34,738 nt of DNA from a virus (IMGVR_UViG_3300017987_000231:1-34738), one strand, 5' to 3'. Counted from the first letter of the stretch, positions 18,064 through 32,953 are shown. Notes: generated from the sequence alone by a model not told the origin. Program-made: numbers and translations.

Positions 18064-18585
18064 ATGAAAAAGAAAGTGACCTTGGCAATTGGCTTATTGG
18101 TTTGTTGCATTGCTGTTATTTGTGCGGTGGTGCATGCGCAGCAGCCAATAACGGATGGGAATGGCGACGGTCAGGTGAATATGCAGGACTTTGCCAATAT
18201 GGCGAATGACTGGTTAACATCTGGCTATGCTGGTCTTGGCAGTAATGCCAGGATTGATGTTGGCTTTTATACGGGTAATGGTACATCAGCCAATACCATT
18301 CAAATGGTTTTACATTACCTGGAACGTGTACCGGATTTTATCTTGGTGTTTCCGCTGAGTGCGACTCACGATATTTTTCCGGCTATTATACTTAATGACG
18401 GTGACGATACAAAGATTAAGTTCTTCAACAATCGAGACTGCGATGTCTTTGAGGAGCTAATGAGTATCGAGTATAATAATTTCAAAGTAACCAATATCAC
18501 CACCAACGGGAGCTTCTGGCTAAACCGAGATGGTGATCGGTATTTCTATGTCGCTGTCAGCAAAGAAATACCGGCAATGCCCTAA
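18064..18585 (+). CDS. Secreted protein: half-dockerin fused to fibre-tip-like domain
   Basis: 173 residues. Strong Shine-Dalgarno (TAGGAGA). Residues 1-25 form a signal peptide ending VHA. Residues 31-51 are a dockerin repeat with Ca-loop positions D31, N33, D35, G36 and D42, and a final DWL. Residues 62-173 resemble the C-terminal domain of phage tail fibres: VGFYTGNGTSANTIQM, then PDFILVFPL, and near the end GSFWLNRDGDRYFYVAV. It is placed between helicase and recombination-type genes, away from the tail module. A tail adhesin domain with a secretion signal and a dockerin could be a surface-exclusion or envelope-anchored factor. That role is inference. Confidence 0.72.
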   Translation: MKKKVTLAIGLLVCCIAVICAVVHAQQPITDGNGDGQVNMQDFANMANDWLTSGYAGLGSNARIDVGFYTGNGTSANTIQMVLHYLERVPDFILVFPLSATHDIFPAIILNDGDDTKIKFFNNRDCDVFEELMSIEYNNFKVTNITTNGSFWLNRDGDRYFYVAVSKEIPAMP

Positions 18586-18596
18586 AGGAGATTCAG

Positions 18597-19148
18597 ATGT
18601 CCCCAGATCAATTTGCTGACTTTCGTCCAGAGGAGAAGCCTTCCGACGAGGCATTCGCTAAACTAGACCAGATGATTAAGGATCTGGTTGCCTCTCGTAC
18701 TGCCGTGGCTGATGCTGAGGATGCCCTCAAGAAAGCCCAAGAGAACCGACGGCAGTTGGAGGAGTTTACCATTCCTGAGTACATGATCGACACCCTTGGG
18801 CTTGAGGAGTTCCGCAACAAGGATGGACTTCGAGTGAAGGTGGTTAAGAAGATACGAGCCTCTATCGGGAAAAGGAAGGCAGAGGCATTCCAATGGCTTA
18901 TCGATAATGGATATGATACCTTAATCAAACGTACAGTACAGGTTGCCTTTAACCGTGAGCAAGGCGACGATGCTGAAGCATTGATGAAGGAATTGGAGCC
19001 TAAGTTTGCCGGTGTGCGGCAGGACATGAAGGTTGAAGCTGCAACACTTACAGCGTGGGTGAAGAAAATGTTGGAAGATGGTAAGGAAGTTCCCCACGAT
19101 ATATTCGGTGTATTTGAACAGCGTTTTGCTGAAATAGACGTAAAGTGA
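18597..19148 (+). CDS. Coiled-coil phage protein of replication/recombination region
   Basis: 183 residues, ATG with AAAGGAG upstream. Residues about 18-60 are a coiled coil (LVASRTAVADAEDALKKAQ). Then comes FTIPEYMIDTLGLEEF, a KVVKKIRASIGKRK strand, EAFQWLIDNGYDTLIKR (about 98-115), and VEAATLTAWVKKMLEDGKEVP (about 145-168). This series is typical of a conserved phage protein that is commonly encoded beside an ssDNA-binding protein, as here. No catalytic motif. It may act as an accessory to DNA annealing or protection; function not established. Confidence 0.65.
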   Translation: MSPDQFADFRPEEKPSDEAFAKLDQMIKDLVASRTAVADAEDALKKAQENRRQLEEFTIPEYMIDTLGLEEFRNKDGLRVKVVKKIRASIGKRKAEAFQWLIDNGYDTLIKRTVQVAFNREQGDDAEALMKELEPKFAGVRQDMKVEAATLTAWVKKMLEDGKEVPHDIFGVFEQRFAEIDVK

Positions 19149-19230
19149 TCCCGCTTTTAACTCTAAGGGATCGTGCCGATACGCTGGAGCACGTTAAAGA
19201 GTCCACCGTATATTTTAGGAGTATTGTATC

Positions 19231-20037
19231 ATGACAGAGAAGAACGAACTGGCAAGAAAAGAGGCAGCAGGCGTGCTGGCCAAAGCCGACTTCGGAGATT
19301 TTTCCGGGATGGGCTTTGAAAACCAGACGTCGAACGACATGGTGATCCCGTTTATTGGATTGTTGCAGGCTTTAAGTCCGCAGGTTCAAGATTCAGATCC
19401 GTCCCGGATCAAGGAAGCCAAAGCCGGTGACCTGTTTAATACGGTCACACAAGAACTCATTCCGGCTCCGGCATATTTTGTGCCTTGTTGCACAGATAAT
19501 GTCTATGTCGAATGGGTTCCTCGGGACAGTGGTGGTGGATTCGCTGGGATCCACACGTTGGATTCTGACATTGTTGGCATTGCCAGACAGTCGGCAGCAT
19601 CCTTTAATGAACTGAAGACGCCAGAAGGTAACGATCTCATTGAGACGTTTTACATTTATGGTCTTCTGTTGGAAGGTCCGGACGACAAAGAATCTGTCAG
19701 TCCGATTGTATTGGCCTTCACATCTACCAAGATCAAGATTTACAAACGCTTGATGACCACGCTGCGGACGATCAAAGGTCGACCGCCGATGTTCGCTTTC
19801 CGATTGGCAATAAGTTCAGTCGATGAAGTGAACAAGAAGAAACAGGCATACAAGAATTTCAAAATCGAGCCGGTGCACGGTTCGTTGGCCGAATCGGCTA
19901 ACCTGCCGGGATCCGATTTTGAGTGTCTCCTCGCTGAAGGTAAGGCTCTTGTAGAAGCTATCCGTGGCGGTAAGGCACGTGCGGCTCATGAATCCCAGAC
20001 AGTGTCTCCAGTCGGTGATGGTGACGAACCATTTTAA
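19231..20037 (+). CDS. Putative single-stranded DNA-binding protein
   Basis: 268 residues, ATG with TAGGAG upstream. The body is a beta-rich domain (VIPFIGLLQALSPQV near 34-50, AYFVPCC and VYVEWVPRDSGGGF around 80-105, and SPIVLAFTSTKIKIYKRLMT near 155-175). The C-terminus ends DGDEPF (263-268), an acidic tip like the DDDIPF end of bacterial SSB that recruits partner proteins. Its position between the coiled-coil protein and helicase/polymerase genes supports a role in coating ssDNA. The body is not a classic OB signature by eye, so the name rests on the tail and context. A terminator follows 18 nt after the stop. Confidence 0.55.
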   Translation: MTEKNELARKEAAGVLAKADFGDFSGMGFENQTSNDMVIPFIGLLQALSPQVQDSDPSRIKEAKAGDLFNTVTQELIPAPAYFVPCCTDNVYVEWVPRDSGGGFAGIHTLDSDIVGIARQSAASFNELKTPEGNDLIETFYIYGLLLEGPDDKESVSPIVLAFTSTKIKIYKRLMTTLRTIKGRPPMFAFRLAISSVDEVNKKKQAYKNFKIEPVHGSLAESANLPGSDFECLLAEGKALVEAIRGGKARAAHESQTVSPVGDGDEPF

Positions 20038-21884: not shown

Positions 21885-22121
21885 ATGGAATGTAGCCACT
21901 TTTGGGTTGCTCGAACCGATGGATATGAAGAACAATGTTCACCAGCAATTTGCTTAGTTTGTGGTAAGTATGGTTGCTGGTGTAATTTTATGTCTTCTAT
22001 TCGAGACCTACCTGAATGGATGCAGGAACGTCGTAAACAATTATTTAATGATCTAGGAATCGAGGGCAACAACCATGAGATTGAGAATACAGAAGCGGGA
22101 CGGATCCCTGCAAAAGTTTGA
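21885..22121 (+). CDS. Small Cys-rich, possibly zinc-binding protein
   Basis: 78 residues. ATG 3 nt after the helicase stop. The N-terminal part reads MECSHFWVARTDG, then CSPAICLVCGKYGCWC. The Cys/His pattern (C3, H5, later C-x-x-C and C-x-C) would suit a Zn ribbon, but no family is certain. The C-terminal half is polar helix. It overlaps the reductase gene by 47 nt, so the two are probably coupled. Confidence 0.5.
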   Translation: MECSHFWVARTDGYEEQCSPAICLVCGKYGCWCNFMSSIRDLPEWMQERRKQLFNDLGIEGNNHEIENTEAGRIPAKV

Positions 22122-24261
22122 TAAGAAGAAGATTCATAAAGCACTGATGAGTGCTTTTCACGAGGCAGGCGAAAATGTTAATATGGCTCATACTGCTACC
22201 AATATGGTGGTAGATCGAATAAAAGATTCACCGAAGATCGATGCGGGGATTATCAATATTGAAGTTATACAGGATTTAGTTGAAGAAGTTCTTATGGCTT
22301 CCTATCCTGTTGTGGCCAAGGAATATATTACTTATCGGCAACAGCGGGCACAGGATAGAAAGCAACGGTTAAAACCAGATCCAGATGCATTGGCAAATTA
22401 TATCCACTTCTCTAAGTATTCTCGATTTGATAATGATAAAGGTCGACGGGAGACATACGAAGAGACAGTGGATCATGTTTTGAATATGCATCTACAGAAA
22501 TATCCGAATTGCCGAGCGGAGATTATCAATAGTTTTGAACTTGTTTTTCAAAAACGAGTTCTTCCTTCTATGCGTTCCATGCAGTTTGCTGGTAAAGCTA
22601 TTGAGGTGGCCAATGCTCGTATGTATAATTGTTCCTTCACCTTAATAGATCGGTCAAGTGTATTTGGTGATATCCTTTATCTCCTGCTATGTGGTTGCGG
22701 TGTAGGATTTTCTGTCCAATGGCCACATGTAGAAAAGCTGCATAAGCTGGCTCGTATTGGCCGTAAAGTTAAACATGTGACCATTCCTGACTCTTGTGAA
22801 GGATGGGCTCAGGCTCTTCATGAATTGTTAATTAGCTTTATAATGGGTTATCATGTTGAGTTTAATTACAGTCAAATTCGAGATGAGGGGAAGCTCTTAG
22901 TGACAAGTGGTGGATTGGCTCCTGGCCATTTACCATTGAAGATAGCGTTGGAGAATATACGTGGTGTGCTACTTAAAGCACAAGGTCGTAAACTCCGACC
23001 GATAGAATGCCATGATATAGTTTGCTATTCAGCAGAGGCTGTTCTTGCCGGTGGAATCCGACGGAGTAGCCTTATTAGTTTATTCTCTGCGCAAGATACT
23101 GAGATGCTTTATGCCAAGTCCACTGGCAATTATGATCCGATGCGAGGGTTGAATAGCCAGCGTGCTATGGCGAATAACTCTGCGGTGCTTTTCCGAGGAA
23201 CACAGAATCAAGATTTATTTCGTCGTATTGTTCGCATTGCAGAAGAAGGATTTGGTGATCCTGGTTTCTTCTTTACTAACAACGTGGATTATGGATGTAA
23301 TCCTTGTGGGGAAATTGGACTTCATCCTGTATATGAAGGAAATACAGGATTTAGTTTCTGTAACTTGTGTGAAATCAATGTTGCTGCTGCCAAGAATCGC
23401 AAAGAATTGTTACGAGCAGCAACCGCTGCTGCAGTGATCGGTACATTGCAAGCCGGTTATACAGACTTCCCATTTCTTGGCAGTGTAACAGAGGAGATAG
23501 TTCGACGAGATGCTTTGCTTGGTGTCGGGATGACTGGTATGATGGATAATCCAGATATTGCTTTTGATCCTAACTTGCAACGAGAAGCAGCAAAGGAAGT
23601 GTTACGAACCAATGCTATTGTTGCCAGGAAAATTGGTATTAATCCTTGTTCCCGAGCCACTACTATTAAACCTGGTGGCACGGCTCCATTAGAACTTGGT
23701 GGTGTAGGATGTGGGATTCATCCGCACCATGCTCGTCGTTATTTCCGTCGTGTAACTGCAAATCCTATTGAACCGGCTCTCTTACACTTTATGCGGTATA
23801 ATCCCCACATGGTGGAGGAGAAGCCTAATGGGGATCGAGCTATCGTCTTTCCTGTAGAAGCACCAACAGTTGCTAAGACGGTAAAGGAAATGTCAGCCTT
23901 AGAATTCATGGAGCTCATTTTCTTAACATACGATAATTGGGTCATGACCGGAAACGAAAGCGACGAGGATCTCACGCACAACGTCTCAGCGACTGTTACC
24001 CTGGGCCCAGAGGAACAGGAAGCTGTGGTGGAGTTGATCCTTAAGAATCAACATCGAATTGCTGCTATGTCGTTTGCTCCTCGTTTATTGGACAAGAAGT
24101 TTCCTTTTGCTCCTCGAGAAGAAGTCACGCCAGCAGACGAGTCTCGCTGGAATTATTTGATAGAGAACTATCGTAAGGTGGATTGGACTACTATTTCCGA
24201 GAAAGGAATGGAGATCCTTAATCCTGGTGTTGAATGTTCAGGAGCTAAATGTGACCTTTGA
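22075..24261 (+). CDS. nrdJ: Class II (adenosylcobalamin-dependent) ribonucleotide reductase
   Basis: 728 residues, ATG with GAGGG upstream. An ATP-cone occupies about residues 1-95 (RIQKRDGSLQKFDKKKI). The catalytic barrel contains NARMYNCSF with C186 (redox Cys), NPCGEI with C411 (thiyl radical Cys), FCNLCEIN with C429/C432, the KPGGTAPLELG phosphate loop region and GIHPHHARRYFRRV, all typical of B12-dependent NrdJ. A C-terminal Cys pair (C721 and C726) would be reduced by thioredoxin. No adjacent NrdB-like gene is needed. The host must provide or import cobalamin. The enzyme makes the deoxynucleotides for replication and for base modification. Complete, uninterrupted by an intein or intron. 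Confidence 0.92.
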   Translation: MRLRIQKRDGSLQKFDKKKIHKALMSAFHEAGENVNMAHTATNMVVDRIKDSPKIDAGIINIEVIQDLVEEVLMASYPVVAKEYITYRQQRAQDRKQRLKPDPDALANYIHFSKYSRFDNDKGRRETYEETVDHVLNMHLQKYPNCRAEIINSFELVFQKRVLPSMRSMQFAGKAIEVANARMYNCSFTLIDRSSVFGDILYLLLCGCGVGFSVQWPHVEKLHKLARIGRKVKHVTIPDSCEGWAQALHELLISFIMGYHVEFNYSQIRDEGKLLVTSGGLAPGHLPLKIALENIRGVLLKAQGRKLRPIECHDIVCYSAEAVLAGGIRRSSLISLFSAQDTEMLYAKSTGNYDPMRGLNSQRAMANNSAVLFRGTQNQDLFRRIVRIAEEGFGDPGFFFTNNVDYGCNPCGEIGLHPVYEGNTGFSFCNLCEINVAAAKNRKELLRAATAAAVIGTLQAGYTDFPFLGSVTEEIVRRDALLGVGMTGMMDNPDIAFDPNLQREAAKEVLRTNAIVARKIGINPCSRATTIKPGGTAPLELGGVGCGIHPHHARRYFRRVTANPIEPALLHFMRYNPHMVEEKPNGDRAIVFPVEAPTVAKTVKEMSALEFMELIFLTYDNWVMTGNESDEDLTHNVSATVTLGPEEQEAVVELILKNQHRIAAMSFAPRLLDKKFPFAPREEVTPADESRWNYLIENYRKVDWTTISEKGMEILNPGVECSGAKCDL

Positions 24262-25117
24262 CCTGCAAGATAGTAGAGTACAAGAATATTTCAGTACCGC
24301 TCGTGAGCGGTATGAGATATTTCTGCGGAGAAAGGCAGGTGTTTCTCCTCCTTATACGGAAGATCCTGCCTTTCGTGATTGGCGATTTTGTAATGTATTC
24401 CGAGAGGATGATCGAGTTACAGTGTGGATTCGAGAGAACGTGCGGGATCGATTGCAAGAGAATCCTCATGTATTATTAGCTATGGTGACTTGCCGATTGT
24501 TTAATCGGATTGAGACCATGGAGATACTTAATAACAATGGATTGTTTGATCGTTGGGATTCTCGCAAAGCTCGGAAATTATTACATGGAATCGAGCCAAT
24601 TGTGGGAGCAGCCTATGTGATCAAGACACCAGATGGCATGAATAAGTTAGATGGTGTTTTGTACATGGTGGATGCTGTTAAGGAGGATGCCTTACATTTA
24701 GCAACTCATGGAGACTATGCCATGGGAATTGCTTTAGAAGGTATATGGGAAGTTTTGCAAACGTATCCTTGCATTGGCCGGTTTATTGCGTATGAGATAG
24801 TTAGTGATTTGCGACATACTTATATTGGCAGAAAAGCAACTGATATAAGAACGTGGGCGAATCCTGGACCAGGAGCATGTCGTGGTTTATCATTCCTAGT
24901 GAATGACGATCTTGAATCAATACAGCCAGCCGGTCGTAATGTGCGAGAGAAGATTGTTAAGACTATGATGAAGCTACTTGATTTGAGTAATAACAAAGAA
25001 CTCTGGCCAACAAAGTGGCCACGATGGGAAATGCGTGAAGTAGAGCATTGGCTCTGTGAATATGCTAAATGGGTAAAGGTAACGCATCTTGGGATGCGTA
25101 TGAAGAGGAGATTTTAA
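24251..25117 (+). CDS. HMUDK-helical / AGPT pyrophosphorylase-like DNA base hypermodification protein
   Basis: 288 residues from the GTG at 24251, which has AGGAG 6 nt upstream and overlaps the reductase stop. Residues 18-60 contain RERYEIFLRRKAG, PPYTEDPAF and RFCNVFREDDRVTVWI, a block diagnostic of the helical family found in 5-hydroxymethyl-dUMP DNA kinases and the alpha-glutamyl/putrescinyl-thymine pyrophosphorylases. Later comes NPGPGACRGLSF (about 200-212), also typical. Members take part in installing hypermodified thymine in phage DNA. No P-loop kinase domain is fused here, so this is the stand-alone form, closer to the pyrophosphorylase type. The exact product cannot be read from sequence. 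Confidence 0.72.
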   Translation: MTFDLQDSRVQEYFSTARERYEIFLRRKAGVSPPYTEDPAFRDWRFCNVFREDDRVTVWIRENVRDRLQENPHVLLAMVTCRLFNRIETMEILNNNGLFDRWDSRKARKLLHGIEPIVGAAYVIKTPDGMNKLDGVLYMVDAVKEDALHLATHGDYAMGIALEGIWEVLQTYPCIGRFIAYEIVSDLRHTYIGRKATDIRTWANPGPGACRGLSFLVNDDLESIQPAGRNVREKIVKTMMKLLDLSNNKELWPTKWPRWEMREVEHWLCEYAKWVKVTHLGMRMKRRF

Positions 25118-25118
25118 T

Positions 25119-25937
25119 GTGAAGATCTACATCCCTACTTACAATCGTTACATGGCAAGGCTGGCACAAGCTCTTTGGATTTGGCCGAAAGATCTACCAG
25201 TCTTTGTTGTCGTTAGACCAGAGGAGTTAGAACGGTATGAACAACTCTTAACTAATATTGGTCTGCGACAATGGACAATTCTTCCTTTTGGTCAAGAAGG
25301 TGTTATGCTTACCCGTAATGCTATTCTTGACCATGCGACTGGTATAAAAGAAAATCGCATTTTTATTCTCGATGATGATATCAATTTCTTACGACGAAAA
25401 GACGATCACGCATGGAAATTGCGTGGTGCCACTGACGAAGAAGTCATCGAGATGTTTAACGAACTTACCGAAGCTCTTACAGATTATGCACATGTTGGTG
25501 TGTCCGGTCGTGAAGGCAATAATCGAGTGCTTGATGATTGGGTAGAAAATACCCGTATCATACGATTTATTGGTCTTCGAATGGATGTGTTGAACAAGCA
25601 CGGTATTCGTTACCGATTGCATAATCGCGAGGACTTCGATCTCACCCTTCGTCTCCTCTCCCTGGGCTGTAAGAATCGAGTGTATTACAAGTATGCCCAG
25701 GGGCAGAAGGAATCAGGGATGGCTGGAGGATTGAGCGGGTCACCAGTGCGGGAGCCAGAAGCGATGGCTGCTAATGCTCATGAGCTTGCGGATCTACATC
25801 CTGGCTTGGTAAAGGTAGTCCAAAAGAAGACTAAGACTTCCTTTGGTGGAGGAACAAGGACGGACGTGATTTGTTATTGGAAGAAGGCTTATGAGCGGGC
25901 AGTTAAAACCGGCGAAATACCTTCCACAGCTTTTTAA
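25119..25937 (+). CDS. GT-A glycosyltransferase, TET-associated (TAGT)-like
   Basis: 272 residues, GTG start with GAGGAG 8 nt upstream. The N-terminus MKIYIPTYNR is a GT-A start. The DDD motif at 85-87 (FILDDDINF) would bind metal and the sugar nucleotide. HVGVSGREGNNR and a later NREDFDLTLRLL segment match phage glycosyltransferases known as TET-associated, which add sugars to hydroxymethylated bases. No TET dioxygenase is in the window; the partner here may instead be the thymidylate-synthase-fold enzyme at 27642. It could glycosylate a modified base, or a protein or surface target. It follows the hypermodification gene by one base. Confidence 0.65.
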   Translation: MKIYIPTYNRYMARLAQALWIWPKDLPVFVVVRPEELERYEQLLTNIGLRQWTILPFGQEGVMLTRNAILDHATGIKENRIFILDDDINFLRRKDDHAWKLRGATDEEVIEMFNELTEALTDYAHVGVSGREGNNRVLDDWVENTRIIRFIGLRMDVLNKHGIRYRLHNREDFDLTLRLLSLGCKNRVYYKYAQGQKESGMAGGLSGSPVREPEAMAANAHELADLHPGLVKVVQKKTKTSFGGGTRTDVICYWKKAYERAVKTGEIPSTAF

Positions 25938-26229
25938 TCTTGATTTGATACGACGACTTGTTAATGGAGTCAAGATAGATAAAGATACTGGCTGTTGGAT
26001 TTGGAAAGGTTGTAAACATCATAAAGATGGTTATGGCCAAATTTGGTACGATGGTAAAGCACGGCAAGTGCACCGTGTTTCGTATGCTATATTCAATGGA
26101 GAGATTCCTGATGGAATGACTGTTGATCATACGTGTTTTAATCCGGCATGTTGTAATCCGGAACATTTGACCTTAATGACGCATAGCGAGAACTGCCAGA
26201 GGAAAAATGATCGGTCAGGAATTGATTGA
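25891..26229 (+). CDS. HNH endonuclease
   Basis: 112 residues; the ATG lies inside the end of the glycosyltransferase gene (47-nt overlap). The core is an HNH_3-like pattern: CWIWKGCKHHKDGYGQIWYD, then VHRVSYAIFNGEIPDG, then VDHTCFNPACCNPEHL, with Cys positions that suit Zn binding, and ending T-x-SENCQRKN. This pattern is typical of small free-standing phage HNH proteins. Probably a selfish gene in the modification island, the second HNH gene in the window. Confidence 0.82.
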   Translation: MSGQLKPAKYLPQLFNLDLIRRLVNGVKIDKDTGCWIWKGCKHHKDGYGQIWYDGKARQVHRVSYAIFNGEIPDGMTVDHTCFNPACCNPEHLTLMTHSENCQRKNDRSGID

Positions 26230-26383
26230 TTTTATAATAGAAAGTGGCCTTGTTATGATAGATGACAGGTGCTTGAAAGAAGGTTATACCAGTGGTGTGC
26301 TTATCTGGTCTGCCAATTCGGATGAACAGATAACACAATTTATAAAGGAACATTATGACGGAAATACAGAGTCCTCCTTATAG
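26207..26383 (+). CDS. 58-residue protein upstream of the radical SAM gene
   Basis: The ATG at 26207 has AGAGGA upstream and overlaps the HNH stop; the gene runs into the radical SAM gene by 29 nt. The product begins MIGQELIDFIIESGLVMIDD and ends QFIKEHYDGNTESSL. It is hydrophilic, with acidic ends, and no family is recognised. The ribosome site and the two overlaps support translation, but it is short. Confidence 0.45.
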   Translation: MIGQELIDFIIESGLVMIDDRCLKEGYTSGVLIWSANSDEQITQFIKEHYDGNTESSL

Positions 26384-27311
26384 CGTGCAAGTAGAACCGG
26401 TTGAAGGGTGTCCCTTGCGTTGTCCATTTTGTGGCATAAATGGTATTCGTGGAAATGAACGTGATTATAAATATATGACACTGGATACAGCTGCCACTAT
26501 AGCAGCACAGATTGCATGCTTTAAGTGGACCTCACGAATTGAATTTGCTATGCATGGTGAACCCACTTTGCATCCTGATCTCGTTAAGATCATAGAGATT
26601 TTTAGATCCCATCTTCCTGATAATTATTTTCTGCTTACAACTAATGGTTATGGGTTACGACCAAAAACTAAGCAGAAGATCATGGAACTTTTGGATGCAG
26701 GCATTGATTGTCTTGCAATTGATCGGTATGAAGGTGTTACCTGGTCCGCTGCAATTATGAAACGATTAGGGAATACACCTTACTTAAAGTATCCAGAGGA
26801 TTCAGCTGGCAATCCTCATACACGTAGCAAGAAGAAACGTATCGTGTTTCTTGCTCCTATCAATATAACCAGTGAAGGCACACATGGTAAAAAGATCTTT
26901 GGTAATCATTGTGGAGCCGGTGCTGAATTGGATTTTTCCGCAAAGGAAAAACGATGTGCTCGTCCTTTTCGTGAATTGTCTTTTCGATGGGATGGAAATG
27001 TAGCTCTTTGCTGTAATGATTGGCGTGGTTTATATCGTATAGGTAATATTCACGATATGCCTCTAGAGGATTTATGGCAGCATCCACACTTTCGAGCAGC
27101 CAGAAGAAAGCTCTACCATAAGCAACGAGACTTTGGTCCATGTAATGGTTGCAATCACCTTAGTTTTCGGGTTGGTTTCTTGCCTGATAAACAAGGCAAG
27201 GAGACATTACCTTTGCCAAATACAAACGATAAGAAAATAATAAGAAAAGCCCTCAGCGGTGAGCCGATGGCAAAACCAGTGTGGAGAGAATGGGAAAGAA
27301 TAAATGCTTAA
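26355..27311 (+). CDS. Radical SAM / SPASM-like enzyme of the modification island
   Basis: 318 residues, ATG with AAAGGA upstream. C19, C23 and C26 (GCPLRCPFCG) form the Cx3Cx2C site for a 4Fe-4S cluster and S-adenosylmethionine. MHGEPTLHPDLVKII is the usual GGEP-like strand, followed by LLTTNGYG. The C-terminal part has RCARPFRELSFRWDGNVALCCNDW and a final GPCNGCNH, a SPASM-type auxiliary cluster region. Phage hypermodification clusters are known to include radical SAM enzymes. The substrate is unknown: modified base or a small precursor. Peptide modification is the alternative, but no precursor peptide is seen nearby. Confidence 0.82.
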   Translation: MTEIQSPPYSVQVEPVEGCPLRCPFCGINGIRGNERDYKYMTLDTAATIAAQIACFKWTSRIEFAMHGEPTLHPDLVKIIEIFRSHLPDNYFLLTTNGYGLRPKTKQKIMELLDAGIDCLAIDRYEGVTWSAAIMKRLGNTPYLKYPEDSAGNPHTRSKKKRIVFLAPINITSEGTHGKKIFGNHCGAGAELDFSAKEKRCARPFRELSFRWDGNVALCCNDWRGLYRIGNIHDMPLEDLWQHPHFRAARRKLYHKQRDFGPCNGCNHLSFRVGFLPDKQGKETLPLPNTNDKKIIRKALSGEPMAKPVWREWERINA

Positions 27312-27651
27312 ATGGATATTTACTAATATTGAAGGTGAAAAATCAGATTGGTATTTAGCTATTGTTGCCAATGGAGGTTGTTATTTTCCTGAGGTTGGTT
27401 TCAAATGTAATGAAAAGGAACTAGCTGGTTGCAAGACTTCACCGGTACATACTCCGAAGCTAATGGAAGAATGGAAAAATGTTGTGCTAGGCTTATTGGA
27501 TGTGGTTAATACCGGTGTGTTAAACCCACCGAATCATGTGTGCGGAACACCAAATAGTCAATGCGATAATTTGTGTTCGAACTTTGCGTATCAATGTCAA
27601 ACAATTGCAGAAGCAAAAAGATTATTAAAGGAATATGAGGCATGCAAGTAA
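27304..27651 (+). CDS. Cys-containing small protein, unknown
   Basis: 115 residues. The ATG overlaps the radical SAM stop by 8 nt and its own end overlaps the next start by 10 nt, so it is probably a translated link in the operon. It holds nine Cys (including GGCYF, FKCNEKELAGC, HVCGTPNSQCDNLC and YQC), an unusual density that might bind metal or iron-sulfur. No family recognised. Because it lies between the radical SAM and the TS-fold gene, an accessory role is possible. Confidence 0.5.
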   Translation: MLKWIFTNIEGEKSDWYLAIVANGGCYFPEVGFKCNEKELAGCKTSPVHTPKLMEEWKNVVLGLLDVVNTGVLNPPNHVCGTPNSQCDNLCSNFAYQCQTIAEAKRLLKEYEACK

Positions 27652-28685
27652 TAAAAGCACGTAATGTTGGTCAAGCCTTTCCAGAAGTGATGTACCATTT
27701 GAAGCATCATGGAGTAAGGATGGACAGTCGTAATGGACCGGTGGTGAAAATTCCGGAACCATGCACTATTCTTTATGAAAAGCCGGAAGAACGAGTGCTC
27801 TTTTGTAAAGAACGGGATGCGAATCCATTTTTCCATCTCATGGAATCACTTTGGATGTTGGCCGGTCGTAATGATTTGGCTTTTCCGGTCAGCATTGTGA
27901 AGAATATGGCTAACTTTTCCGATGATGGTAAGATTTTGCAAGGTGCTTACGGTTATCGATGGAGACAACACTTTGGCTATGATCAGTTGAGCAGAATCGC
28001 TTATGCTCTTAAAGCGGATCACACTTGCCGTCGCCAGGTTCTTCAACTATGGGATGCCAAGAATGATCTTGGTTTACCATCGAAGGATTTACCTTGCAAT
28101 ACTCAGATTTACTTCTCCATCAATCACGAAGGTCAATTGGATATGATGGTCACCAACCGTTCCAATGATGCAGTATGGGGAGCATTGGGAGCGAACGCAG
28201 TACACATGTCCATTCTGCAAGAGTTCATGGCCGGTTGGATTGATGTTCCTATTGGTAGATATTGGCAGGTCAGCAACAATCTCCATCTCTATTTGCGAGA
28301 GCACGAGGATCTGATGAACCTCATGGCCGAGCGAGCCTTCCCCTCTGGGCAATACAAGTATAACGATCCGTATGAGTGCCAAACGGTAAAGCCCACTCCT
28401 CTATTGCCCAAGGGAGACATCGATAAGTTTCAGCAGGATCTTAAGATCTTCCTTGATGAAGGATTGGTGCTTGGTATTCGGGATTCATTCTTGTTTAGGG
28501 TGGCTGCTCCTATGCTTACTGCTATACGAGTGTATAAGCAGACACCGGCTCCTAAGAGATTTGAACTCATGGAGAAGGAACTTAGCAAGATGGATCCAAG
28601 TTTAGATTGGTGTCAGGCAGCTAAGTGTTGGTTGCTTATTCGGCATCATCGGTGGGAAGAGAAACAACGGGAGCATGATGACTAG
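27642..28685 (+). CDS. Thymidylate synthase-fold enzyme (dTMP synthase or dUMP hydroxymethylase)
   Basis: 347 residues. The ATG overlaps the upstream gene. The family marks are R130/R131 (CRRQVL, phosphate binding), the nucleophile C152 in DLPCNTQ, NRSND (172-176), and GANAVHMS with N185, then YWQVSNNLHLY. These cover the nucleotide and folate sites. An Asn in the base-recognition loop favours dUMP over dCMP. The enzyme can either methylate dUMP to dTMP or hydroxymethylate it to 5-hydroxymethyl-dUMP as in SPO1-like phages; sequence by eye cannot separate these. Its neighbours argue for the hydroxymethyl version, an inference. Confidence 0.82.
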   Translation: MQVIKARNVGQAFPEVMYHLKHHGVRMDSRNGPVVKIPEPCTILYEKPEERVLFCKERDANPFFHLMESLWMLAGRNDLAFPVSIVKNMANFSDDGKILQGAYGYRWRQHFGYDQLSRIAYALKADHTCRRQVLQLWDAKNDLGLPSKDLPCNTQIYFSINHEGQLDMMVTNRSNDAVWGALGANAVHMSILQEFMAGWIDVPIGRYWQVSNNLHLYLREHEDLMNLMAERAFPSGQYKYNDPYECQTVKPTPLLPKGDIDKFQQDLKIFLDEGLVLGIRDSFLFRVAAPMLTAIRVYKQTPAPKRFELMEKELSKMDPSLDWCQAAKCWLLIRHHRWEEKQREHDD

Positions 28686-29076
28686 TGTTTATTTAATATG
28701 TCCAGTAAGAAATTGTCCACCAGAAGAACGGAAGTTAATGGACAAGTATGTCTCTGATCTAGAGGATCAGGGATACAGAGTTCATTACCCACCAGAAAGT
28801 GTGGATCAATTCAATGATGACGGTGGTGTTCGTATTTGCCACGAGCATCGTGAATTCATGCGGCATCTTAGTTATCGAGATGAAGTTCATGTCTGGTTGC
28901 TTAATGGTAAATTAACAGAGGGTGGTTACTTTGATTTTGGCATGGCGTTCATGCTAAGTTGGTGGGTTCATGGAATAAAGTTTGTAATAGCGAACGGGCC
29001 ATTACAACAAACTGAACATAAATCTTTTGAGAATTTGTTACGGAGTATAGCTAATGACCAAGATGGAACAAAATGA
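28675..29076 (+). CDS. Nucleoside 2-deoxyribosyltransferase-like protein
   Basis: 133 residues; two adjacent ATG codons at 28675 and 28678, overlapping the TS-fold stop. The pattern VYLICPVRN-x-x-PPEE, then DLEDQGYRVHYPP, VRICHEHREFM, and EGGYFDFGMAF matches the small Rossmann-like deoxyribosyltransferase family found in phages. It would act on nucleotides or deoxynucleosides in the pool. The catalytic Glu is not certain by eye. It could also be a DUF4406-like relative. Confidence 0.55.
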   Translation: MMTSVYLICPVRNCPPEERKLMDKYVSDLEDQGYRVHYPPESVDQFNDDGGVRICHEHREFMRHLSYRDEVHVWLLNGKLTEGGYFDFGMAFMLSWWVHGIKFVIANGPLQQTEHKSFENLLRSIANDQDGTK

Positions 29077-29707: not shown

Positions 29708-30154
29708 ATGGTTAAGTATGTTGTTGGTTTAATGTTTGATGATTCCATGAATAGGCTGGTGCTTATTCATAAGCGTCATGGACCAGAATGTGTGATTGGT
29801 AAATGGAATGGTGTAGGTGGTCACATCGAAGAGGGAGAACAACCAACACAAACAATGGTTCGAGAGTTTGAAGAAGAGACTGGTGTTTTACACACAGATT
29901 GGCATAAATTCTGTGTTCTGAAACATCCACAATCAGAATGTGAGGTTCACTTCTTTTATGCTAAGAGCACCGATGCTGTACAACGGGTGAAGACTTTAAC
30001 TGATGAAGTGGTATCGATTTTCCGATTAGCTTACTCTGGTGTTGAGATGACGGTTCTGCCTTTAGACATTATGCAGAATCTCACATGGATGGTTCCCTTT
30101 GTCCGTGACACCACTATCCCTCATGACCTTGGCACAATTGAGACTGTATTATGA
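29708..30154 (+). CDS. Nudix hydrolase
   Basis: 148 residues from the ATG at 29708, which has TAGGAG at 5 nt; an upstream in-frame ATG at 29690 lacks a site. The complete Nudix box is visible: G-H-I-E-E-G-E, seven residues, then REFEEETGV, fitting Gx5Ex7REUxEExGU. WNGVGGHIE is the standard lead-in. Enzymes of this kind hydrolyse nucleoside diphosphate derivatives, for example 8-oxo-dGTP or unwanted dNTPs. In this setting it might clear canonical or damaged dNTPs. It overlaps the polymerase start by four bases (ATGA). Confidence 0.88.
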   Translation: MVKYVVGLMFDDSMNRLVLIHKRHGPECVIGKWNGVGGHIEEGEQPTQTMVREFEEETGVLHTDWHKFCVLKHPQSECEVHFFYAKSTDAVQRVKTLTDEVVSIFRLAYSGVEMTVLPLDIMQNLTWMVPFVRDTTIPHDLGTIETVL

Positions 30155-32073
30155 CCGGTGGCATACAACTACCTTTATTCCAGCCGGAATGCGACTGGAA
30201 GCCACCCAAGGTCTCTGATTTACCAAGCTGGGACCAAGCTAAGAGAGTCTCCATAGATATAGAGACCTATGATCCTTTGCTAAAGAAGCTCGGTCCAGGA
30301 GTGAGACGTGGGGGATATATTGTGGGGGTTTCCTTTGCGATAGAAGATGGGCCATCTCATTATGTTCCTTTACGACATTATGGTGGAGACAATGTAGCTG
30401 ATCCAGAACACGCTCTGCAATACTTCCGTGACCAAGCTAAACTATATAAGGGCATATTATGTGGAGCCGGAATGCAGTATGATCTGGACTTCTTAGCGGA
30501 AGAAAAAATCATATTTCGTTCGGTGAAATGGTTTCGTGATTGCCAAATTGCAGAGCCTCTTCTCGATGAGCTTCAAGAATCCTATTCTCTTGATGCTATT
30601 GCAACTCGAAGAGGAATACCAGGCAAAGACGAATCTCTTCTTAGACAAGCTGCCAGTGATTGGGGGATTGATCCTAAGAATGATATGTGGAAATTGCCGG
30701 CTCGTTATGTTGGGGGTTATGCTGTACAAGATGCTATTCTCCCTTTACAATTGTTACGTAGACAAGAACGAGAAATAGATGAGCAAGATTTATGGAGAGT
30801 GTATGATCTTGAAAGTCGAGTGCTACCTGTCCTCGTAAAAATGCGGAGACGTGGCATACGAATCGACTTTAAGAAATTAGAAGAAGTAGAACGCTGGTCA
30901 GAAGAACAAGAAGCCTTATGTCTTGAGAAAGTATATCAAGACACTGGTGTTCGTATCGCCGTGGGAGATGTGTGGAAGCCTGAACCACTAGCCAAGGCTC
31001 TAACAGCTATCGGCATAGAAGTGCCAAAAACACCAAAGACAAATCAACCTTCGATCGACAAGAACTTATTCAATACAATAAATCACCCTGTAGCCACTGC
31101 CTTGGAGCGTGCTCGTAAAGTAAATAAACTACGAACCACCTTTGCCAATAGCGTACGAGAACATGCTGTGAATGGTAGGATTCATTGTACATTTAATCAG
31201 TTACGCAAAACAGACGATAACACTGGCATGGATCAGGGGGCACGTTATGGCCGTTTATCCTGTACCGATCCCAACCTGCAGCAGCAGCCATCAAGAGATG
31301 ACTTTGCTCCCATGTGGCGGTCGATCTATGTCCCGGACGAAGGTGGTCTCTGGGCTTCCTGCGACTACAGTCAGCAAGAACCTCGCATGCTGGTGCACTT
31401 TGCTGTCTTGGCCAAATGCCCAGGAGCATCGATGGCAGCGGATAAATATTGCAATGATCCAAATGCCGATAACCATACGATGATGGCTCGTATGATCTAT
31501 GGCTATGGGGATGACGAGGAACCATCTAAGAAACATCGTACCAATGCGAAGATTATCTTTCTCGGCTTATGTTACGGGATGGGTGGAGCGAAGCTGGCTC
31601 GTGATCTTGGCTTGCCCACGAAGTGGATAACGAATCGGCAGGGTAAATACATCGAAGTGGCTGGTGATGAGGCTCAGGCTATCTTAAACCAGTTTAATAG
31701 GCAAGTGCCTTTCGTGAAGAAAATAGCTGAAATGGCTACTGGTAAGGCACAGCGTGTTGGTTACATTAAGACTGTGGCCGGTCGTCGGTGTCGTTTCCCG
31801 AAGGATGAGGTGACTGGTAAATATGATTGGTGTCATAAAGCTCTTAACCGGTTGATTCAAGGTTCGTCTGCGGATCAGACTAAAGAAGCTATGGTCATGT
31901 TGGATGAAGCCGGTTATAAAGTACAATTGCAAGTTCACGATGAAGTGGATCAAACAGTAGAAAGTAAACAGCATGCAGAGGGCATTGCTAACATTATGCG
32001 AAATTGTATGGAACTGGTTGTTCCTAGCAAGGTGGATGTGGATTTAGGACCGAGTTGGGGCAAAGCATCATGA
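30151..32073 (+). CDS. Family A DNA polymerase with 3'-5' exonuclease
   Basis: 640 residues. The exonuclease domain starts with VSIDIETYD, with D36 and E38. Polymerase motif A is DYSQQEPRM at 405-413 (D405 metal ligand), preceded by RLSCTDPNLQQQPSRD. Motif B is R463, K467 and Y475 in RTNAKIIFLGLCYGM. Motif C is H596-D597-E598 in LQVHDEVDQ. The residue equivalent to E. coli Phe762 (eight after R463) is L471. No 5'-3' exonuclease domain. The length is that of phage replicative Pol I-like enzymes. The stop overlaps the next start. Confidence 0.95.
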   Translation: MTGGIQLPLFQPECDWKPPKVSDLPSWDQAKRVSIDIETYDPLLKKLGPGVRRGGYIVGVSFAIEDGPSHYVPLRHYGGDNVADPEHALQYFRDQAKLYKGILCGAGMQYDLDFLAEEKIIFRSVKWFRDCQIAEPLLDELQESYSLDAIATRRGIPGKDESLLRQAASDWGIDPKNDMWKLPARYVGGYAVQDAILPLQLLRRQEREIDEQDLWRVYDLESRVLPVLVKMRRRGIRIDFKKLEEVERWSEEQEALCLEKVYQDTGVRIAVGDVWKPEPLAKALTAIGIEVPKTPKTNQPSIDKNLFNTINHPVATALERARKVNKLRTTFANSVREHAVNGRIHCTFNQLRKTDDNTGMDQGARYGRLSCTDPNLQQQPSRDDFAPMWRSIYVPDEGGLWASCDYSQQEPRMLVHFAVLAKCPGASMAADKYCNDPNADNHTMMARMIYGYGDDEEPSKKHRTNAKIIFLGLCYGMGGAKLARDLGLPTKWITNRQGKYIEVAGDEAQAILNQFNRQVPFVKKIAEMATGKAQRVGYIKTVAGRRCRFPKDEVTGKYDWCHKALNRLIQGSSADQTKEAMVMLDEAGYKVQLQVHDEVDQTVESKQHAEGIANIMRNCMELVVPSKVDVDLGPSWGKAS

Positions 32074-32507
32074 GAAGAAAGGCTGACGAAGAGCTTATGA
32101 ATCATCGTAATTATTATACAGCATTACGGTTTCAAGATCGTAATGATCTACATTTAACGCTCCATTATTACAAGAATCTGGCTCCCAAAGACCTAGCCAT
32201 CTTAATCATGGAGACGGAAAATAAATTCCATCAAGCCAGCGATAAGCATCAATTTCCCCTTGTGCTTGATCGAGTGGACTGGTTTGGGTATCGAAAAGAC
32301 ATACGAGTTCTGCGACCACCTGTAGATAGTTTTGACAAGGACAAGATGGTGGCGAATATGACGATCTGGCCACCGTGGGTTACACAATACACTCCCAAGT
32401 CATGGACACCGCATGTGTCCTGCGACGATAAGAGTCTGAATCTAATTGTGAATGGATTGGCTATTATGAAGGGTAAAGTGGAAATTGTATCATGGGCAAT
32501 TTATTAA
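32070..32507 (+). CDS. 2H phosphoesterase-like protein
   Basis: 145 residues from the ATG at 32070, which overlaps the polymerase stop (ATGA). The two signature motifs are H28-L-T30 in DLHLTLHYY and H115-V-S117 in WTPHVSCDD, the H-x-(T/S) pair of the 2H superfamily (2'-5' RNA ligase/cyclic phosphodiesterase fold). Spacing of about 87 residues and overall size fit. Known phage members act in RNA end repair or, as anti-CBASS Acb1 (T4 gp57B), hydrolyse cyclic oligonucleotide signals. Which one applies here is unknown. The neighbours are replication and nucleotide genes. Confidence 0.65.
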   Translation: MRRKADEELMNHRNYYTALRFQDRNDLHLTLHYYKNLAPKDLAILIMETENKFHQASDKHQFPLVLDRVDWFGYRKDIRVLRPPVDSFDKDKMVANMTIWPPWVTQYTPKSWTPHVSCDDKSLNLIVNGLAIMKGKVEIVSWAIY

Positions 32508-32953
32508 ACGAGAAGTGGGACCGAAGATTCTTGGACCTGTGCAAAACAATCGCCAGCTGGTCCAAAGATCCCAGCACAAAGTGCGGTGCGGTAATCGTGC
32601 GGCCAAATCGCACCATCGTCTCCCTGGGCTATAATGGGTTCCCCAGGGATATTTGTGACACAGCTGAGAGATTAAATGATCGGCAAGTGAAATATAGTTT
32701 AACGGTTCACAGTGAAATGAACGCATTGCATAATGCTCCTTGCTCTGTGGATGGATTTACTATATACTGTTATCCGTTCGTTGCTTGCAACGCTTGTACG
32801 ATTCATTTGATTCAAGCAGGAATAAAACGTGTAGTGGCACCGCTGCCTTCTGGCGACATACTCAGCCGATGGGCAAGTGATATTAAAGTAACTAAGGAGC
32901 TTTTGAAAGAAGCTGGTGTTGAATTGACAGAGTATGATTTAGGAGTACAATGA
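32492..32953 (+). CDS. dCMP deaminase-family protein
   Basis: 153 residues, ATG overlapping the upstream gene. Zn site: H73-S-E75 in TVHSEMNAL, with C99 and C102 in PFVACNACTIHLIQAGI. DPSTKCGAVIV and YNGFPR at the start are typical of dCMP deaminases. It converts dCMP (or a derivative) to dUMP, which feeds the TS-fold enzyme at 27642. The stop overlaps the next start (ATGATGA). Confidence 0.88.
   Translation: MGNLLNEKWDRRFLDLCKTIASWSKDPSTKCGAVIVRPNRTIVSLGYNGFPRDICDTAERLNDRQVKYSLTVHSEMNALHNAPCSVDGFTIYCYPFVACNACTIHLIQAGIKRVVAPLPSGDILSRWASDIKVTKELLKEAGVELTEYDLGVQ

Follow-up and report, generated by a model that had tools for sequence, protein, structure and literature searches.

The uncultured virus contig IMGVR_UViG_3300017987_000231 (from here on the window, the whole stretch that was analysed: a full, linear IMG/VR record of virus class, 34,738 bp long and probably a fragment) carries a compact cassette of four genes. 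These encode a helical HMUDK_hel protein (P0001), a TAGT-family glycosyltransferase (P0002), a radical S-adenosylmethionine (SAM) enzyme (P0003) and an enzyme of the thymidylate synthase (TS) fold (P0004). The cassette genes all lie on the plus strand, and neighbours overlap or almost touch. The original prediction for this DNA had named these four families and proposed a hypermodification island for uracil or thymine, possibly with a sugar. Profile searches with Pfam and PHROG confirm all four families in one tight operon. The island is supported too, as a probably sugar-bearing one, because these genes recur as a group in many phage contigs that are not related to each other.

The nature of the base is suggested by P0004 (27642..28685, +; Thymidylat_synt E=1.1e-18, PHROG 5131 E=1e-124), a predicted dUMP hydroxymethylase. 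The residue at its dUMP/dCMP switch is Asn185, which aligns with N177 of the Escherichia coli TS, just as had been proposed from a dUMP-type Asn, and which is the same in all of 31 enzymes from cassettes and M6-like phages. By a published rule, Asn at TS position 177 marks dUMP enzymes and Asp marks dCMP enzymes (PMC8670742). The catalytic Cys152 lies in PCN, and the PCN/GAN signature of P0004 is that of the enzyme of SP82G, a phage with 5-hydroxymethyluracil (hmU, or 5-hmU), not that of T4-type thymidylate synthase. P0004 is 36% identical to the SP82G TS-like protein (147 bits, against 49 bits for T4-type thymidylate synthase), 56% to the PaMx11 enzyme and 51% to the MP1412 enzyme. The phages of the SPO1/SP82 group contain hmU. 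A dCMP deaminase is encoded further along the window (32492..32953, +; PF00383 E=9.6e-16, PHROG 174 E=3.9e-42), part of the genomic context, and would give dUMP to P0004. Together, the SP82G-like signature and this deaminase point to 5-hydroxymethyl-dUMP (hmdUMP) as the probable product. As a separate observation, the T4-type 'thymidylate synthase' td of Escherichia phage VR25 (L207 430-1290) has Asp at the switch (GLPFD), which may mean dCMP specificity.

P0001 (24227..25117, +) belongs to the HMUDK_hel family (PF18723, E=1.2e-39; 136.8 bits, cut-off 25). It had been described as 'HMUDK-helical/AGPT-like', a label whose first part stands and whose second part falls, the amino acid:DNA transferase family (PF18724) being absent from the window. 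An amino-acid transferase role for HMUDK_hel is ruled out by Pfam, where the family is the helical partner of 5-hydroxymethyl-dU (5-hmdU) kinase. The AlphaFold2 model (predicted local distance difference test, pLDDT, 92.9) has weak similarity in Foldseek to the PaMx11 gp46 glycinyltransferase (8z2n, E=0.023, prob 0.97), which is the top match, and next to helix-hairpin-helix DNA glycosylases such as OGG, again weakly. Despite the weak fold similarity, profile-profile comparison found no relation between HMUDK_hel and the amino acid:DNA transferase, and PDB sequence searches with P0001 and the HMUDK_hel profile gave no match. We predict a helical protein with a DNA-glycosylase-like fold that acts as a partner in 5-hmU recognition and base flipping.

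An alignment that spans kinase-linked and glycosyltransferase-linked members of HMUDK_hel, including the MP1412 and PaMx11 proteins, has R28, R59, D62, R90, D194, D206, GPG 214-216, C277-E278 and K281 as invariant residues. The two kinds of members are intermixed in the family tree, where the well-supported branches require at least four changes of the radical SAM/glycosyltransferase label. On the simplest reading, HMUDK_hel may be a base-recognition and flipping module that is reused with different catalysts. The cassette uncouples HMUDK_hel from the kinase, and this bears on the role of the subunit.

The next gene encodes P0002 (25119..25937, +), which was expected to be TAGT-like and is well over the cut-off of PF20691 (E=4.5e-17; 63.1 bits vs 27.5), the Pfam family that also holds the T6 TAGT (PMC13216743). 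It matches PHROG 842, 'beta-glucosyl-HMC-alpha-glucosyltransferase', with E=2e-36, and its DxD-type motif, D85-D86-D87, is invariant in 27 sequences. We predict that it glycosylates 5-hmU in DNA. The glycosyltransferases that partner the radical SAM family are of several kinds, namely TAGT, the TAGT-like families c39 and c54 (98% and 94% probability against TAGT profiles in profile-profile comparison) and the GT-B-like family c8, whose sole similarity is a weak one to GT-B enzymes (best E=0.002, Glyco_trans_1_2). PDB sequence searches with P0002, the TAGT profile and c8 gave no match. T-even-type or TAGT homologs are found in 111 of 5,388 RefSeq phages, and the same 2026 paper on T4 glucosyltransferases reports solitary TAGTs of undefined function in 288 of 753 phage genomes (PMC13216743). 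The cassette supplies such solitary TAGTs with definite partners and with a product that can be put to the test.

For P0003 (26355..27311, +) both Pfam profiles are over cut-off, Radical_SAM with E=9.7e-14 and SPASM with E=4.8e-13. The earlier name 'radical SAM/SPASM' therefore holds at the level of profiles, but the domain has a four-Cys twitch and not a seven-Cys SPASM. Only two parts of the seven-Cys motif (CX9-15GX4C...CX2CX5CX3C...C, as defined in PMC6231123) are present in P0003, C201-x12-G214-x4-C219 and C263-x2-C266, both conserved. The SAM-cluster motif CX3CX2C (C19/C23/C26) and the auxiliary-cluster cysteines in their twitch arrangement (C201/C219/C263/C266) are invariant in 34 relatives, and all seven align with those of BtrN. 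A PDB search with a profile of the 34 relatives found BtrN with E=2.6e-27, the next solved structure following at 1.1e-6. The AlphaFold2 model (pLDDT 93.2) has BtrN at Foldseek rank 1 (E=2.5e-14, TM 0.62/0.78, with 0.78 on BtrN); the list also holds SpeY, a twitch radical SAM dehydrogenase among the top fold matches, AbmM and DesII, plus peptide enzymes.

BtrN carries out the two-electron oxidation of a secondary alcohol in 2-deoxy-scyllo-inosamine, and all ligands of its auxiliary cluster are filled (PMC9012708). We class P0003 as BtrN-like by profile, fold and cysteines, not by function, and predict that it oxidizes or epimerizes a hydroxyl of the attached sugar. With BtrN and SpeY it shares the fold, the CX3CX2C motif and the four-Cys pattern of the auxiliary cluster. 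BtrN differs in its free aminocyclitol substrate and its place in the synthesis of an antibiotic, butirosin, and is about 17-19% identical to P0003 in structural alignment, whereas the P0003 family is linked to DNA glycosyltransferases.

A tblastn search with P0003 against 50,697 phage records gave no match; isolate-based surveys would therefore have missed the cassette. A second family member had only remote matches in the phage records, at 22-24% identity: these are Campylobacter phages and a single record of a faecal phage. Relatives of P0003 are many in IMG/VR, and a search of genome contigs added one close relative, from an Actinomadura prophage. Campylobacter phage vB_CjeM_WX1 (L075 4312-11318) has a remote BtrN-like radical SAM gene together with an amidinotransferase, an aminotransferase and more radical SAM genes, which looks like an aminocyclitol/guanidino-sugar pathway.

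How constant is the company that this radical SAM family keeps? Locus layouts were drawn by tblastn (several TAGT genes lie under antisense open reading frames, ORFs), and gene content was counted over 76 radical SAM loci, which are non-identical in the radical SAM core and are not independent lineages. A glycosyltransferase candidate (TAGT, c39, c54 or c8) is present in 71 of the 76, and lies at most 150 bp from the radical SAM gene in 52; HMUDK_hel is found in 55, a TS fold in 60 and Tet_JBP in eight. Among the five loci with no recognized glycosyltransferase, two (L113 and L154) have an immediately upstream gene that is weakly Glycos_transf_1 or Glyco_trans_1_2-like, and the other three are at or near contig ends. 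The recurrent layout is HMUDK_hel, glycosyltransferase, radical SAM and TS fold, frequently with an HD phosphohydrolase and PolA. The gene set is common to dozens of uncultured phages.

A minority of the loci have a Tet/JBP dioxygenase (PF12851 E=1.3e-19) in place of the TS-fold and HMUDK_hel genes. Because these swapped loci keep the radical SAM and glycosyltransferase genes, the radical SAM enzyme follows glycosylation and not uracil. Among the carriers are L021-L024, L051, L052 and a prophage of Actinomadura rayongensis DSM 102126 (L068 7902-13778) that holds the radical SAM gene, a C5-cytosine methylase, a ParB-like protein, c8 and Tet_JBP. Phage clusters of Tet/JBP and glycosyltransferases (TAGT family) therefore share the radical SAM family in some cases and differ in forming the hydroxymethylpyrimidine on DNA by Tet_JBP (presumably on 5-methylcytosine in L068), not by a dUMP hydroxymethylase. 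With the Actinomadura prophage, the radical SAM family has a carrier in culture.

Another variation on the layout is seen in TAGT and radical SAM clusters that also carry an adenylylsulfate kinase and/or the family c37 (L038 8398-11568, L039, L040, L049; L045; L010 8217-9008; L113 5292-5999). The kinase of L049 matches PF01583 with E=1.6e-57, and c37 looks like a sulfotransferase by eye and has no Pfam match. A sulfated sugar on phage DNA is possible in these clusters.

HMUDK_hel is otherwise found in a different setting. In the Pseudomonas phages MP1412 and PaMx11 its gene follows that of a P-loop kinase, which matches PF18748 in MP1412 and AAA_33 in PaMx11 (there PF18748 matches weakly). Upstream, both phages encode an amino acid:DNA transferase (PF18724). 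The structure of PaMx11 gp46, a 5-phosphomethyl-dU glycinyltransferase, has been solved (8z2m/8z2n). The M6-like phages (M6, MP1412 and SN1) and PaMx11 share with the window the phage family, the gene order (Dda helicase, ribonucleotide reductase (RNR), modification genes, TS-fold dUMP hydroxymethylase, PolA and dCMP deaminase) and homologous HMUDK_hel and hydroxymethylase proteins, at 31-56% identity. They differ in having the P-loop kinase, the amino acid:DNA transferase and pyridoxal phosphate (PLP)/photolyase-like radical SAM or flavin/acetyltransferase genes; in place of these, the window encodes a TAGT and a radical SAM enzyme that is BtrN-like.

The original prediction had argued from a 'pyrophosphorylase-like' part, which is not supported, since the family of the helical protein is that of the kinase partner. 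It had also suggested a search for a P-loop base kinase elsewhere in the genome. PF18748 has no match in the 34,738 bp, although both controls, MP1412 and PaMx11, were recovered. PF18724 has no match in the window either (controls: MP1412 E=2.6e-48, PaMx11 E=3.3e-29). With both families missing from these 34.7 kb, the M6/PaMx11 amino-acid/pyrophosphate route is therefore not indicated. Searches with the same two families and HMUDK_hel covered 47 records, with contigs of up to 178 kb. The PF18748 kinase was found in the two isolates and the four kinase-type contigs without exception, and in no radical SAM-bearing record; PF18724 passed its cut-off in MP1412, PaMx11 and the L004 contig alone, with three radical SAM records below threshold; and HMUDK_hel was found in 38 records. 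Scans for P-loops, which even with relaxed rules missed some kinase controls, found only the Dda helicase near HMUDK_hel and, window-wide, only helicases or out-of-gene frames. A kinase stands beside HMUDK_hel in one of 58 loci that have both radical SAM and HMUDK_hel genes.

We conclude that the cassette very probably serves DNA glycosylation acting on hmU. That the sugar, once linked to DNA, is modified by radical chemistry is an evenly balanced matter. As an overall account we favour, with some confidence, an hmU-based post-replicative DNA-glycosylation cassette in which a BtrN-like radical SAM enzyme tailors the sugar. In the scheme that we infer, each catalytic step, the order of the steps, the identity of the sugar and the assignment of the radical step to DNA, not to a sugar nucleotide, are all predictions. 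The dCMP deaminase would convert dCMP to dUMP, P0004 would convert this to hmdUMP and, after further phosphorylation to hmdUTP, the phage polymerase would put hmdUTP in place of some T. P0001 would then recognize hmU in the duplex and flip it, so that P0002 could move a sugar onto the hmU hydroxyl. Finally, P0003 would take a hydrogen atom from a carbinol carbon of the DNA-linked sugar. Its auxiliary 4Fe-4S cluster would act as the electron acceptor in an oxidation to a keto-sugar; alternatively, P0003 would epimerize the sugar.

A more far-reaching combination of claims is tentative, and we hold it at somewhat less than even chances: that a radical SAM enzyme abstracts a hydrogen atom from a sugar which a base of double-stranded DNA already carries, so that uracil (cytosine in the Tet/JBP relatives) comes to bear a keto-, epi- or deoxy-sugar, and that HMUDK_hel is a general 5-hmU flipper which was joined more than once either to a kinase or to glycosyltransferases. 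Several points weigh against the scheme. Direct glycosylation of hmU by TAGT is an assumption, because the T-even TAGTs that have been studied use already glucosylated hydroxymethylcytosine (hmC) as substrate (PMC13216743). The SPASM/twitch family is functionally diverse, and sequence is a poor guide to the type of reaction in it (PMC6231123). The loci are phylogenetically non-independent. The radical SAM gene is found with makers of hydroxymethylpyrimidines as well, so that oxidation of the hydroxymethyl group would be compatible with the linkage. Furthermore, in L149 (2393-10687) a homolog of the P-loop kinase (GTCGAGKS) is encoded between HMUDK_hel and TAGT, and a radical SAM gene is present too. 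Absence of the kinase is a rule and not a law because of this contig, which rules out the strict claim that it is always absent; and because the window covers only a fragment of the genome, the missing part could hold a kinase.

What else might P0003 do? It may act before the transfer or elsewhere, by oxidizing or epimerizing the sugar of the nucleotide-sugar donor or of a free nucleotide or by oxidizing the 5-hydroxymethyl group, with the glycosyltransferase using its product and the DNA still being glycosylated. Gene linkage alone does not fix the order of steps, the BtrN substrate is a small molecule (PMC9012708), and the carbamoyltransferase of another DNA-modification cluster uses a triphosphate as well as DNA (PMC8670742). 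We consider this unlikely, roughly a one-in-several prospect, given that different glycosyltransferase families swap beside one radical SAM family and that no sugar-nucleotide biosynthesis gene was recognized beside the window cassette. It is improbable that the window holds a variant of the M6/PaMx11 pathway, with kinase and transferase in the unsequenced part, an amino acid on 5-phosphomethyl-dU rearranged by the radical SAM enzyme and the TAGT as an extra. Such a variant would suit the synteny with MP1412 and PaMx11 and the normal place of HMUDK_hel as a kinase partner, and M6-like phages too have a radical SAM gene that adjoins the cluster (PMC9476957). However, their protein (L007 6938-8380) is weak in Pfam (Radical_SAM E=1.8e-4), has no SPASM match and does not cluster with P0003, and PF18748 and PF18724 are missing from the window, and no radical SAM-bearing IMG/VR record among those searched has either of them over cut-off.

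Between the radical SAM and TS-fold genes lies a Cys-rich ORF of 115 amino acids (27304..27651, +) that overlaps the radical SAM gene and could be its substrate, were P0003 to mature a peptide or metalloprotein and its pairing with glycosyltransferases to be incidental. Many SPASM/twitch enzymes do act on small peptides (PMC6231123). We nevertheless regard this as very improbable: the ORF has no homolog among the loci scanned, against a glycosyltransferase partner in 71/76, and by fold P0003 comes closest to a sugar-alcohol dehydrogenase and not to an enzyme that acts on peptides. The ORF itself is family-less, with a weak sub-threshold DUF4912 match (E=0.017) and no PHROG or NCBIfam match. 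Finally, databases label the homologs of P0004 thymidylate synthase, as would be expected of an ordinary nucleotide-metabolism operon in which P0004 makes dTMP and the remaining genes are unrelated morons. We give this reading hardly any credence, since P0004 resembles the enzymes of SP82G and the M6-like phages much more than it does thymidylate synthases, and all four genes are found together in phage contigs of unrelated origin.

The favoured scheme, glycosylation of hmU followed by radical tailoring of the sugar, has parts in common with other known systems. T-even and SPO1-type phages also form their hydroxymethylpyrimidine at the nucleotide level, and T-even phages then glucosylate it by glycosyltransferases; the base is C in the T-even phages and would be U in the window cassette. 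To our knowledge SPO1-type phages do not glycosylate, and we know of no radical step in T-even or SPO1-type systems. Combinatorial hypermodification clusters were reportedly found in metagenomes by Lee et al. in 2022. A BtrN-like enzyme in DNA-modification clusters is not described in the open-access literature that we searched, a scope outside which key primary papers lie.

The combination of HMUDK_hel-type, TAGT and TS genes is already known, because these were noted together in pelagiphages, whose clusters hold TS, aG/PT-PPlase1, a putative beta-glucosyl-HMC-alpha-glucosyltransferase and a 5'-deoxynucleotidase (PMC9599517). The same HMUDK_hel-type, TAGT-type and TS-fold set occurs in the IMG/VR contigs L001 and L059 and in Brevibacterium phage LuckyBarnes, and no kinase was reported or detected in any of these or in the pelagiphage clusters. 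They differ from the window cassette in the radical SAM gene: no BtrN-like one was found in L001, L059 or LuckyBarnes, and PMC9599517 mentions none. If our scheme is true, the cassette would be a previously undescribed way of decorating DNA. Radical chemistry on a sugar linked to DNA would be a class of reaction that is new to DNA modification, and would make a DNA-tailoring tool of an aminoglycoside-type enzyme. LuckyBarnes is an isolated phage with a TS-fold gene, two tandem TAGT genes and HMUDK_hel (L076 3601-7616), in which kinase and radical SAM genes were not detected, and is a cultured test case for hmU glycosylation.

The window phage is uncultured and Mesyanzhinovviridae-like. The first third of the window holds tail genes, and the remaining two thirds match gene by gene the replication and modification half of Mesyanzhinovviridae siphophages, such as MP1412 (Yuavirus, M6-like) and PaMx11 (Abidjanvirus), with L001 as the nearest relative. 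The class II (adenosylcobalamin) ribonucleotide reductase that had been placed just upstream of the cassette is confirmed (22075..24261, +; TIGR02505 E=2.9e-57, PHROG 367 E=1.5e-103) and belongs to dNTP supply. L001, MP1412 and PaMx11 have reductase genes at the same position that are organized differently, and because of this the reductase of the window is ordinary phage nucleotide metabolism. The PolA-type DNA polymerase (30151..32073, +), the predicted user of hmdUTP, is likewise context, and is 50-60% identical to the polymerases of MP1412, PaMx11 and L001-L004.

Between the TAGT and radical SAM genes lies an HNH (homing-type) endonuclease (25891..26229, +; HNH_3 E=3.2e-15) that we place outside the pathway. 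A copy that is 48% identical is found in L001 at the equivalent site, after its TAGT gene. L001 also has an AAA_33 P-loop kinase (18901-19407; E=3.9e-14) beside its dCMP deaminase; this kinase has no PF18748 match and the window is without a counterpart. Directly after the TS-fold gene, positions 28675-29076 encode a protein of 133 amino acids that resembles a nucleoside deoxyribosyltransferase or dNMP glycosidase by eye, an assignment for which neither Pfam nor PDB searches gave support; relatives have an HD phosphohydrolase there. Lastly, positions 18064-18585 encode a protein of 173 amino acids that starts like a signal peptide and holds a dockerin/EF-hand-like stretch, DGNGDGQVNMQDF, which is odd in a phage replication region.

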